A DNA stretch of 64,000 nucleotides, taken from Methylovulum psychrotolerans (GTDB lineage Bacteria; Pseudomonadota; Gammaproteobacteria; Methylococcales; Methylomonadaceae). The position numbers were made by a program, and so were the translations under genes. The stretch lies in contig NZ_PGFZ01000004.1 in the NCBI RefSeq assembly GCF_002923755.1, positions 1 to 64,000 on the forward strand. The letters run 5' to 3'. Under the pieces are notes generated by a model. It was not told where the DNA came from and made no database searches. It saw nothing but the letters and a program-made list of their open reading frames with translations. Within the stretch, counting starts at the first letter, position 1. Each line of letters starts with the position of its first letter. This document shows, one piece after another, positions 59,905-64,000 of the stretch.

Positions 59905-60930
59905 ATGACTGGCTTTAAATTCCCCGAACTTGCACAACTCGAAGGCCTGATCGAGAAGTTTGGTACGCGTGCGCGTACCGAAGTGATCGACCGTGTCCGC
60001 TATAAACATTTGGAATTCCCCATCTATAGCCTAACGCTAGGCACGACTAAGCCTGATGTGCCGGTACTGGCGTTTTTTGGCGGGGTGCATGGTTTGGAAA
60101 AAATCGGTTCGGAAGTGATTTTGTCGTATCTGCAAACCATACTGCACTTGCTGGATTGGGACGAGGAGTTGCAGCAACGGCTGGAAAATTCGCGATTGGT
60201 GTTTGTGCCTATCGTCAATCCGGTCGGGGTTTATCTGGGGCGGCGCTCCAACGGCAATTGTGTGGATTTGATGCGCAACTCGCCTATTGAGGGCGAGGGT
60301 GAGGGGGCGAAGAAAATTTATAGCGGCCAGCAATTGACGCGCTATCTGCCGTGGTATCGCGGTGATGTCACGCAGATGGAACAAGAGTCCTTGGCCTTAT
60401 GTAAGGTGGTGCAGGAGCAGTTATTTACCGCACCGCTGTCGATGGCGTTGGATTTGCATTCCGGGTTCGGCATTAAAGACCGTTTATGGTTTCCTTATGC
60501 CTCGCGGCAAGTGCCGTTTGCCTATATCCCGCAAGCGATGGCGTTAAAAGATTTGTTTGACCGTTGTTATCAGAACCATGTTTATAAAATTGAGCCGATG
60601 TCGCAGGAATATGTGATTAACGGCGATTTATGGGATTATTTGTTCGACCAGTTTGTCGGCCAGTTTGGTCAGCAGAAGTTTTTTCTGCCCTTGACCTTAG
60701 AAATGGGCTCGTGGCTATGGTTGCGGAAAAACCCGCTGCACTTGTTTTATCGGCACGGCTTGTTCCACCCTATGCTGCCGCACCGCCAACAGCGGGTGTT
60801 GCGCCGCCATTTCGTCCTGTTTGATTTTCTGCACCGGAGTTTGTTGTATCCGGCGCCGTGGGCGCGGCTCACCCCGGAACAACAGGCCGCTAACCAAGCG
60901 AAGGCCGAAGGCTTGTGGTATGGCCGATAA
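59905..60930 (+). CDS. M14-family zinc carboxypeptidase/deacylase-like protein
   Basis: 341 residues from the ATG at 59905. Zinc ligands are the His and Glu of GGVHGLEKIGSE and the His of DLHSGFG, and LEMGSW supplies the catalytic Glu. NPVGVYLGRRSNGNCVDLMRN is the substrate loop of the succinylglutamate-desuccinylase/aspartoacylase and M14 group. It could remove acyl or amino-acid groups. It starts 83 bases after olsA on the same strand and overlaps the hydrolase gene downstream by 11 bases. Confidence 0.85.
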   Translation: MTGFKFPELAQLEGLIEKFGTRARTEVIDRVRYKHLEFPIYSLTLGTTKPDVPVLAFFGGVHGLEKIGSEVILSYLQTILHLLDWDEELQQRLENSRLVFVPIVNPVGVYLGRRSNGNCVDLMRNSPIEGEGEGAKKIYSGQQLTRYLPWYRGDVTQMEQESLALCKVVQEQLFTAPLSMALDLHSGFGIKDRLWFPYASRQVPFAYIPQAMALKDLFDRCYQNHVYKIEPMSQEYVINGDLWDYLFDQFVGQFGQQKFFLPLTLEMGSWLWLRKNPLHLFYRHGLFHPMLPHRQQRVLRRHFVLFDFLHRSLLYPAPWARLTPEQQAANQAKAEGLWYGR

Positions 60931-61690
60931 GCGTGGGCAGCAATGGGTGTTATTGCGCGGTCTGGCGCGTGAATCGGCACATTGGGGGGATTTTCTCCCG
61001 CAACTTCAGGCGCAGTTTCCCGCCGCGACGATAACTGCTTTGGATTTGCCGGGGACGGGGCAATTTTGCGCCCAGCCCAGCCCCGATAATATCGCCGCCA
61101 TTACCGAGCATGTCCGCGCCCAAGCGATGGCGCGGGGGCTGTTGGCGCAACCCGTCACGTTGCTGGCGGTGTCGCTGGGGGCGATGGTGGCGTGGGAATG
61201 GTTACAGCGCTATCCTGATGACTGTTGCGGCGCGGTGTTGATGAACACCAGCTTTGCTAGTCTAAGCCCGTTCTACCAGCGTTTGCGTTGGCAAAGTTAT
61301 CGGCAATTTGCGGCGGCACTGATGCAGCGCGACGTTTATCGGCGCGAGTTAGGGATTGTCCGCTTAGTGGGCAATCGGCCTGGGCAGTATGAGACGGTGG
61401 CGCAGGCGTGGGCGGCTATCCAAACCGCCCGGCCTTTGCAGGTAAGCAACGCCATCAGGCAACTACGCGCCGCTGCCAGCTACCGCCCGGCACTGACACC
61501 GCCCTTAGCCCCGGTGCTGTTGCTTAACGGTCTGGGCGACCGCTTAGTGTCCCCGGCGTGTACCGAGGCGATCCACCAGCACTATGGCTTAACCTTGCGC
61601 CGCCACCCTTGGGCTGGGCATGACCTGACCTTGGATGATGGCGGCTGGGTGCGTGGGCAAGTGTGCGAGTGGTTAGCGGAGCCGGGTTAA
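60920..61690 (+). CDS. Alpha/beta hydrolase
   Basis: 256 residues from the ATG at 60920, overlapping the deacylase by 11 bases. VLLRGLARESAHWGDFLP is the oxyanion segment, LLAVSLGAMVAWEW carries the nucleophile Ser (AVSLG rather than GxSxG), LLNGLGDRLVSP the acid and PWAGHDLTLDDGG the His. The substrate is unknown. Its last 100 bases are duplicated imperfectly near 63740-63826, see findings. Confidence 0.87.
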   Translation: MADKRGQQWVLLRGLARESAHWGDFLPQLQAQFPAATITALDLPGTGQFCAQPSPDNIAAITEHVRAQAMARGLLAQPVTLLAVSLGAMVAWEWLQRYPDDCCGAVLMNTSFASLSPFYQRLRWQSYRQFAAALMQRDVYRRELGIVRLVGNRPGQYETVAQAWAAIQTARPLQVSNAIRQLRAAASYRPALTPPLAPVLLLNGLGDRLVSPACTEAIHQHYGLTLRRHPWAGHDLTLDDGGWVRGQVCEWLAEPG

Positions 61691-62161
61691 TGGCCGTTAA
61701 TCGTTGCAGTAGCTGGCGAGTCGGATGGGTCTTTTATAAAAAGCATAGCGGTATATAACACACTTCGTTATTAGACCTTGCTAAGAGGTCATTTCTTGCG
61801 CATTCCTCAGTTTTTTGTGTTTTTCGTGAGCAAAAACACCGCCGCCTACTATGCAAAACGGCATCACCAAATTACGGAAATCACCTTATTGCTGGCTGGG
61901 TCTATTTCCTTTTATACTGGAATCCCGCGACATTATTGTTGGGCCTTCAAGAAATTAGGATAAAACCCTGCGAAAAATAAAAGCAACCGTAATGAAGTGC
62001 CTAGCCATTATGGAAGCAGATAAGGTGGAGCCGCCATTCAGCCGGACGCTTACATTATCGGACAATTTTTGGGTGATTATCCCTATGAGTACGCTGACTT
62101 GATTGTCAATTTTACCAACTTTTGGCGGCAGCCTTTTCATCCATTTCAACCGAGGTGTCTT
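61691..62161. other. Intergenic region with left copy of a direct repeat
   Basis: About 470 bases. At the left it holds the remainder (61691-61714) of a repeat whose other copy lies around 63740-63853. A plus-strand frame at 61778-61963 and others have no convincing start or protein pattern. The promoter of the secreted gene should be near 62050-62150 but no clear one was seen. Confidence 0.4.
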
Positions 62162-63706
62162 ATGCGCACTAACGCTTTTTTCTGTCTTAGTTTAATCAGC
62201 GGTTTGTTGGCCGCCAACATCAGCCATGCCGATGTCTGGCAAAATCCGGGGTTAGCGCCCAATAGCGGCAATAACATCCATAACGACTCGTATATGAGCG
62301 ACAATTACACACTTCCGGGGCCGACAACGGCGGCCACCCAAGCGGAAGTCAAGCAAGTCAATTTCTTTCTCAGTTTGGATTTGAGCACTAAGCAAGCCGC
62401 GTTTCGCGGTTTAGGCGAATGCGCGGCGCAAACATTTGATGCGTCCGGGCATTTGTACACGATTTGTGCAGGGATACCCGTCAACAACACGCCGTCAAAA
62501 AAACTACTGATGGCGTTTTCTGCCAATTTGCAACCCTTGGCGTGGCATGAATTGCCCAGCAATGGCTCCACCAGCCTGACTGATTTTGGCGGTGGCGGTT
62601 ATTTTTTCTTGGATAACCAATACCGGCCCGTGGTCGTCCAAAATGACGGCCATCTGGTGGTTTACCAAGCCACCTTAGGTACGCCGCTGAGTTTAGGTAG
62701 CTTCACCGCTGTGCGCGATATTGATTTGAGCGGGTATTTGCCGGACGGTGACAAACTGTATTCAGCGATGCCAGACAAAGCTGGGTATATCTGGTGGGTT
62801 AGCAGCCAAGGCATAATCGGCACAATAGCGCCGGATGACAGTGTCAAGCGTGTTGATTTGAATGACCCGGATGGTGACGGTATCCGTGTTGCCGCCGATG
62901 CGTCTAATTTTCAAAAAATCGCCAATTCATTGGCGGTGGACGAAGGGGATAAGGCAAACGGCTACAGCGGCGTTTACATTGTATCCACACATCGCTTATA
63001 CCGCTTTGCTACCAACGCCGACGGTACGCCCGTTAAACGCTGGGCGGCGCATTACCAACGCGGTACGGCGATTAAATCCGGCCAAGTCAGCCAGGGTTCG
63101 GGCTCCACACCTACTGTATTTACGATGGCTGGCCGCCGCTATGTCGCCATTACCGACAATGCGACTCCGATGCACGTTAATATTTACCGTGCCGAAGTTA
63201 AGTTAGGCGCAAACGAAACCCGCTTGTTCGCACAAGCCGTGCCGTTTGCGACGGACAAAAGTGCCGATGAAAACAGCCTGATCGCCTATCCTACCGCAAC
63301 TGGCGTTGCCTTATTCGCCGAAAATAATTACGGCTATTCGGCACCGCAAAGCGTAGGCGGCAACCTGACGACTGAACCCGGTTTTGCGCGTATAGAGGTA
63401 ACCCCGGACGGTGCGGCGGTCAGCAGCGTCAACAATACGATTTCGGTGCCGTCCATCGTGTCCAAAAGCAATTCCGCCGATGGGGTTGTTTATACCTACG
63501 AAAAACGCACAGACGGTTATTGGTATTTAACTGGCTTGTCGGCGGATGATGTTAATCAGGTGCTGTTTTCCGTCAAGATAGGTAACCCTAGCGAAAACCT
63601 GCTGGAACAACAATACAATAACCATTACTCGGCACTGAGTTTAGGTGCGGACGGTTCGATTTACTACGGCACGGTATTTGGCATCACGCAAGTTAAGCTG
63701 CATTAA
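62162..63706 (+). CDS. Secreted protein, possibly beta-propeller
   Basis: 514 residues from the ATG at 62162, with a signal peptide (about 1-23, ending ISHAD). The start 31 codons upstream is not credible. The body is rich in aromatic/Gly turns with repeated patterns such as GYLPDGDKLYSAMPDKAGYIWWV, GVYIVSTHRLYRFATNADG and VALFAENNYGYS, suggesting a beta-propeller. No named family is recognised. It lies alone between two copies of a repeated hydrolase tail, which suggests it arrived or was duplicated with that repeat. Confidence 0.6.
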   Translation: MRTNAFFCLSLISGLLAANISHADVWQNPGLAPNSGNNIHNDSYMSDNYTLPGPTTAATQAEVKQVNFFLSLDLSTKQAAFRGLGECAAQTFDASGHLYTICAGIPVNNTPSKKLLMAFSANLQPLAWHELPSNGSTSLTDFGGGGYFFLDNQYRPVVVQNDGHLVVYQATLGTPLSLGSFTAVRDIDLSGYLPDGDKLYSAMPDKAGYIWWVSSQGIIGTIAPDDSVKRVDLNDPDGDGIRVAADASNFQKIANSLAVDEGDKANGYSGVYIVSTHRLYRFATNADGTPVKRWAAHYQRGTAIKSGQVSQGSGSTPTVFTMAGRRYVAITDNATPMHVNIYRAEVKLGANETRLFAQAVPFATDKSADENSLIAYPTATGVALFAENNYGYSAPQSVGGNLTTEPGFARIEVTPDGAAVSSVNNTISVPSIVSKSNSADGVVYTYEKRTDGYWYLTGLSADDVNQVLFSVKIGNPSENLLEQQYNNHYSALSLGADGSIYYGTVFGITQVKLH

Positions 63707-63739
63707 ACGGTCGCCCGCCGGATGGTGGTTGAAACTTAA

Positions 63740-63826
63740 GCCTCCACCCCGGCAGATGACCTTGAATAATAGCGGCTGGGTGCTTGGGCAGGTGCGGGAT
63801 GGTTGGCGGAGCCGGGTTAAGGTCTG
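63740..63826 (+). pseudogene. Degenerate second copy of the alpha/beta hydrolase 3' end
   Basis: The bases from about 63755 align to 61632-61714 with roughly 85% identity (for example cggctgggtgc, ggcggagccgggttaa, gttaatcgttgcagtagct). In frame it gives MTLNNSGWVLGQVR, matching LTLDDGGWVRGQVC of the intact gene, but there is a frameshift and no start. It is a remnant that marks a duplication breakpoint. Confidence 0.7.
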
Positions 63827-64000
63827 TTAATCGTTGCAGTAGCTGCCGAAGTCCTTAAACATCCTCGGATTGTCCTTAACGATTTGGCGTTTAAAGGCAG
63901 TAAACGCCGAGGCGGCATGTAAGTGGGATTTGATTTTCCGCAGACAGTGCCGTTTTTCGTCGTCATCGTGCGCCTTATAGTAATCAATCAGCCAATCTTG
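63827..64000 (-). CDS. C-terminal part of a gene continuing beyond the window
   Basis: On the minus strand, the frame from base 64000 runs 57 codons to a stop at 63827-63829. The end reads KIKSHLHAASAFTAFKRQIV then DFGSYCND. It is basic and helical with no recognised family. The last residues are also encoded, inverted to the hydrolase, at the left repeat near 61700-61713, so the ancestral arrangement was hydrolase and this gene tail to tail. Confidence 0.6.
   Translation of the reverse strand, partial: QDWLIDYYKAHDDDEKRHCLRKIKSHLHAASAFTAFKRQIVKDNPRMFKDFGSYCND

Follow-up and report, generated by a model that had tools for sequence, protein, structure and literature searches.

Duplication of a short stretch of sequence at the breakpoint of a rearrangement or at a break-repair junction is a known kind of event, and the target duplications of transposons are usually far shorter than about 94 nucleotides (nt). 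The locus described here lies on contig NZ_PGFZ01000004.1 of Methylovulum psychrotolerans, of which we analyzed positions 1 to 64,000 (here referred to as the window; 64,000 nt). It resembles a breakpoint duplication in having a short duplicated junction beside new DNA, with no mobile enzyme recognized, and differs in that the copies are direct, surround a block of ~2 kb, and come without an available ancestral state. As in a transposon target-site duplication, direct repeats flank the block; in contrast to one, they span ~94 nt, and the block has neither a transposase-sized open reading frame (ORF) nor inverted arms at its ends.

The right-hand copy of the repeat runs into a predicted defense cassette. 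Septu consists of the ATPase PtuA and the HNH protein PtuB, and an adjacent, same-strand gene pair at this locus matches the PADLOC models of PtuA and PtuB nearly full length. The same genes score far under the NCBIfam equivalog cutoffs for the PtuA and PtuB of retron Ec78 (116.7 of 500 bits and 26.3 of 150 bits, respectively). Anti-phage activity is reported for another Septu system (PMC13096335).

Results

From left to right, the locus carries an M14-type peptidase gene, an alpha/beta hydrolase gene, a ptuB-like tail, a gene relic, a gene for a propeller-like protein, a decayed hydrolase tail, ptuB, ptuA, and truD (Table 1). The DNA past position 64000 was taken from the same contig. A sequence-only reading of the window had proposed that some 85 to 100 bases at the hydrolase 3' end recur near 63755-63853. 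When 61500-61849 was compared with 63700-64000 by blastn, this repeat was recovered in direct orientation (E 4e-28), with one gap and with differences at 13 of 94 columns. No third copy of the repeat turned up in the M. psychrotolerans genome (97 contigs, 5.19 Mb): at E <= 0.001, a query covering 61590-61730 matched only itself and the right copy (E 2.3e-24), and a right-side query (63690-64000) again returned only the same two copies. Gapped local alignment of the wider repeat region scored 160, compared to a maximum of 55.5 among 300 dinucleotide shuffles, so that the similarity stands well above background; together, the blastn E values and the shuffle test rule out chance resemblance. A gapped leftward extension to 61585/63726 is possible but weak, with 12 of 1,000 shuffles of the near flank and 51 of 1,000 of the wider flank scoring as well as 61585-61608 against 63726-63749. 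The right flank of the core is background (686 and 196 of 1,000 shuffles as good for the near and wider flanks, respectively).

Table 1. Features of the hydrolase-truD region (positions in contig coordinates)
Feature	Position	Strand	Evidence
Alpha/beta hydrolase gene, intact	60920..61690	+	Pfam PF00561, E 6.2e-12; ATG at 60920
Possible weak extension of left copy	61585..61625	+	Gapped alignment to 63726-63756; shuffle test
Left repeat copy, core (hydrolase 3' end and ptuB tail)	61626..61719	+	81/94 identical to 63757-63849
Probable ptuB remnant (stop and last six codons, one changed from Gly to Ala)	61697..61719	-	22/23 identical to 63827-63849
Multicopper-oxidase gene relic (leader and first codons, 61863-61995, firm; internal piece, 62080-62118, weak)	61863..62118	+	DNA identity
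Propeller-like protein gene (514 aa)	62162..63706	+	AlphaFold2 model; PDB matches
Possible weak extension of right copy	63726..63756	+	Shuffle test
Right repeat copy, core (decayed hydrolase end and intact ptuB tail)	63757..63849	+	blastn; LDDG to LNNS, 1-nt deletion
ptuB (predicted HNH protein of Septu)	63827..64501 (in window, 63827..64000)	-	PADLOC PtuB, E 1.7e-54, residues 1-221 of 224
ptuA (predicted)	64508-65719 (beyond window)	-	PADLOC PtuA, E 9.6e-116, residues 4-400 of 403
truD	65847-66881 (beyond window)	-	TruD NF002153, E 1.5e-131

The repeat consists of the hydrolase 3' end (the last 65 nt of the gene lie inside the left core) followed by the stop and last six codons of ptuB. Conservation between the copies is highest in the ptuB tail, followed by 61670-61690 (20/21 identical) and then by 61626-61668 (36/43). 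As the sequence-only reading had it, each copy is intact for a different gene. On the left, the hydrolase end is intact, with LTLDDGGWVRGQVCEWLAEPG and the stop; the right copy carries a 1-nt deletion and reads LNNS in place of LDDG. Only from the right copy does the sequence run on into the intact convergent gene.

Judging from its PADLOC match, that convergent gene is ptuB of a two-gene Septu system with predicted anti-phage activity. Among the 61 relatives, PtuA was found only in M. psychrotolerans itself (0 of the other 60; E 1e-20). PtuB is present in 12 of 301 genomes of the order (E 1e-10) and in 2 of 369 genomes of a class sample (E 1e-15), with M. psychrotolerans included in both counts. 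There is no second ptuA (E 1e-20) or ptuB (E 1e-10) in the M. psychrotolerans genome. PtuB had no match in a phage collection, three relatives in viral contigs (40 to 46% identical), and two in plasmids. One of its relatives, encoded on the Persicobacter plasmid CP012864.1 (L106; Bacteroidota), is 55% identical, which suggests wide transfer of the Septu type seen here. Of the 11 other PtuB carriers in the order, we fetched the surroundings of five. In three (L123, L124, and L125), ptuA and ptuB occur together with flanking genes that vary by place, and two (L126 and L127) sit at the ends of contigs and have no ptuA there; tblastn detected neither hydrolase nor propeller gene nor truD in any of the five. 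In L127 (G633:C97, 7395-7756), which belongs to another genus of the family, the PtuB gene is interrupted by stops and frame breaks and is apparently a decaying Septu remnant.

We aligned PtuB with four sequences from three other genera of the family and the one from the Persicobacter plasmid. In all six, M. psychrotolerans included, a Tyr stands 2 to 5 residues from the C terminus, and the G504 protein and the broken PtuB of G633 have similar ends. Because six nearer PtuB relatives have a Tyr near the end at the same place, the tail is probably native to PtuB and the left copy probably a true ptuB remnant, a view based on the nearer relatives and on few residues. Recruitment of the PtuB tail from sequence downstream of the hydrolase is unlikely, since the PtuB proteins of the six nearer relatives, encoded at other places, stop at this point too and have the Tyr in common; its rejection is tempered by four more distant PtuB proteins (L107, L108, L109, and L112; 40 to 46% identical), which lack the Tyr and have different ends.

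The left copy contains the stop and last six codons of ptuB, and the junction between hydrolase and ptuB would therefore predate the duplication. This supports the proposal of the sequence-only reading that the two genes met tail to tail, with the junction duplicated afterward. A relative with a bare hydrolase/ptuB junction, which that reading had suggested looking for, did not turn up: none of 19 other genomes of the genus matched 63690-64000 (E 0.001), and neither an intermediate state nor an empty junction was found in any genome examined.

We then compared the copies with the hydrolase tails of relatives. All 14 relative tails carry the left base at 61634, 61637, and 61640, positions at which A is found in the right copy. 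None of the 14 carries the left base at 61653, 61664, or 61666, where they most often have the base of the right copy (12, 11, and 9 tails, respectively). Both copies have thus changed since they separated. For this check, 17 of 29 loci were used and 14 tails retrieved, with a picking motif that demands the first Asp. Counted without the motif, the Asp-Asp that is lost in the right copy is kept in 24 of 28 covering loci (exceptions, L016, L026, L027, and L033; L028 does not reach this position). The changes in the right copy fit a loss of constraint.

As had been noted from the sequence, the propeller-like gene lies between the copies. The block also holds the multicopper-oxidase relic, which follows the ptuB-like tail after 143 unassigned bases. 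The firm part of the relic has 75 to 76% DNA identity to the start (leader and first codons) of a gene on contig C7 of the same genome (G000:C7), which matches Cu-oxidase families, and to that of its counterpart in G010:C84. The possible internal piece is weak (blastn E 0.006; 30 and 49 of 2,000 protein shuffles as good). The leader itself is conserved among the C7 gene, the G010 counterpart, and the relic (61863-61995; L079:3667-3788; L078:2593-2725). A 26-nt part of it (L078:4138-4163) also occurs just upstream of a neighboring ORF in G010, and C23 of the M. psychrotolerans genome has a 27-nt match. Genes for a 7TMR-DISM histidine kinase and, by look, an apparent response regulator lie nearby, so that the conserved leader may be an operator.

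The propeller-like protein has no Pfam match up to E 0.1 and none in NCBIfam or PADLOC at the limits used. Its AlphaFold2 model, built from 6 sequences, is nearly all beta, with a mean pLDDT of 70.8 and residues 1 to 52 unreliable. The PDB matches of the model are largely propellers, including designed propellers, streptogramin B lyase, and BamB. The protein is probably secreted, since by eye its N terminus resembles a signal peptide. Between the copies, we recognized no gene for a transposase or an integrase; the ORFs of at least 60 aa there are the propeller gene and frames of 61 to 114 aa. Terminal inverted repeats were likewise lacking: none of six inverted pairs in 61560-63900 falls at both block ends. 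We took a 16-nt inverted pair (61534-61549/63701-63716) with one arm inside the hydrolase gene as chance. No known RNA family was detected in 61500-64000 at E 1.

Finally, we examined the neighborhoods of these genes in relatives, many of them drafts; completeness is 90% or more and contamination 5% or less in 52 of 61. Among the best 29 relatives' hydrolase loci, viewed with ~1.5 kb on each side (L028 is cut by a contig end), a convergent esterase faces the hydrolase in 10, all of them among the 15 same-genus loci and one with a further gene in between. The M. psychrotolerans esterase is on another contig (C1:948404), beside an Hsp20 gene, and no ptuA or ptuB remnant was found next to it. With the esterase on C1 and the genus-typical pairing lost, the hydrolase end is marked as a rearrangement breakpoint. 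A distance of 1.88 Mb separates hydrolase from truD in G019, a genome in a single contig.

The propeller gene is found in 2 of 61 relatives and in 6 of 301 genomes of the order, M. psychrotolerans included. It lies near truD in 1 of 29 relatives' truD loci, that of G034 (Methylobacter sp. DP16D_bin.19), where a propeller gene of 78% amino acid identity is followed by a 214-aa gene and then by convergent truD. Since truD flanks ptuA in M. psychrotolerans, the truD side may be where the propeller gene belongs. The G034 propeller locus showed no hydrolase tail at E 0.01, and no relics of the 214-aa gene were found between ptuA and truD at E 1. No truD lies near the propeller gene of G443 (62% identity) or of G445 (37%). 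Farther along the M. psychrotolerans contig, at 70064-70226 (L003:10064-10226), two inverted arms match L072:10425-10476, ~245 nt upstream of the G034 propeller gene; they are possibly a small palindromic mobile element.

SulP is found beside truD in 2 of 29 relatives' truD loci (G019 and G006), and M. psychrotolerans has SulP homologues on C78 (73%) and elsewhere on C1 (67%). These positions, and that of the esterase beside Hsp20, give no sign of a simple inversion with one break at the hydrolase/esterase junction and the other at truD/SulP.

Discussion

We favor, with somewhat better than even confidence, the view that this locus is a rearrangement scar at which a hydrolase region was joined to a truD/propeller region and the junction was duplicated; we infer both the order of events and the mechanism. 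A Septu cassette (ptuA-ptuB) would first have been placed tail to tail with the hydrolase. When the hydrolase region and the truD/propeller region were later joined, 94 nt, and perhaps as many as ~135, at the junction of hydrolase and ptuB would have been duplicated, leaving the propeller block with a copy at either end. We consider a duplicative join the likeliest mechanism, for example a break in the junction followed by copying of both overlapping ends and then by ligation of a further fragment, or else a single crossover with a DNA piece carrying the junction. The hydrolase would then take its end from the left copy and ptuB its end from the right copy, with the unneeded half of the right copy decaying.

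This history is consistent with the reality of the repeat, the ptuB-like tail on the left, the lost hydrolase-esterase neighborhood, the propeller gene near truD in G034, and the 1.88 Mb between hydrolase and truD in G019. Set against it, no genome examined shows the intermediate state. In G034, the 214-aa gene stands between the propeller gene and truD, and independent arrival there is conceivable; the rarity of the propeller gene and its occurrence away from truD in G443 and G445 would also fit a separate gain. The deviating ends of the four more distant PtuB proteins and the lack of ptuA/ptuB remnants beside the relocated esterase count against it as well. As for decay, Asp-Asp is not universal, and the 14 polarity tails were chosen by a motif demanding Asp.

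The sequence-only reading had pictured an insertion, and its duplicated junction around a 2.1-kb block holds; the position of the esterase on C1, the gene order of G034, and the composite block remove the need for a plain insertion. In its simplest form, hydrolase, ptuB, ptuA, and truD were already in line when a propeller piece of ~2 kb entered and duplicated the junction. We regard this as possible but rather unlikely. Direct copies of one junction do bracket the block, a ptuB tail is on the left, and the propeller gene is rare and patchy. However, the propeller-truD neighborhood of G034 becomes a coincidence, a duplication of ~94 nt is far above those usual for transposons, the only transposase-sized ORF is the propeller gene, and the block ends lack inverted arms.

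It is improbable that the Septu piece was what moved, with hydrolase tail, ptuB, and ptuA copied between the propeller gene and truD and the hydrolase side then breaking within ptuB and joining upstream of the propeller gene. The propeller-truD order in G034 and the other surroundings of Septu in the five carriers fetched (of 11 others in the order) would suit such a movement, but it requires that joins to the left and to the right of the propeller gene end in the same 94 nt, and the genome holds no second ptuA or ptuB at the thresholds given above.

Far less probable is a site-specific island, in which an integrase put a small element into the 3' end of the hydrolase gene, with the repeats as attachment sites: a repeat at a gene 3' end whose left copy keeps the hydrolase whole is what such an island would have, but the repeat includes part of ptuB, and the only integrase-sized ORF between the copies is the propeller gene, which has no Pfam match and models as a propeller. 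Least probable of all is an assembly error joining two contigs at the repeat, for although this is a 97-contig draft and none of the relatives examined shows a comparable join, an assembler would hardly confuse copies that differ at 13 of 94 columns, the window contains no N, and the genome is 99.99% complete and 0.15% contaminated.

Annotators should take neither the hydrolase-like stretch at 63757-63820 (perhaps starting at 63726) nor the ptuB-like tail at 61697-61719 for a gene; both are leftovers. Read as a junction-copying join, the scar is clear but of an ordinary kind, a record of genome rearrangement beside a known defense system, and it would document how a two-gene defense cassette and an accessory gene became neighbors of core genes. 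More broadly, small defense cassettes without mobility genes, such as Septu, might settle at gene 3' ends by homology-poor duplicative joins, with the same events driving wider chromosome rearrangement and the present scar as a legible case, a generalization that we consider quite doubtful. If many defense cassettes have such scars, comparison of gene ends could trace the movement of cassettes that lack mobility genes.
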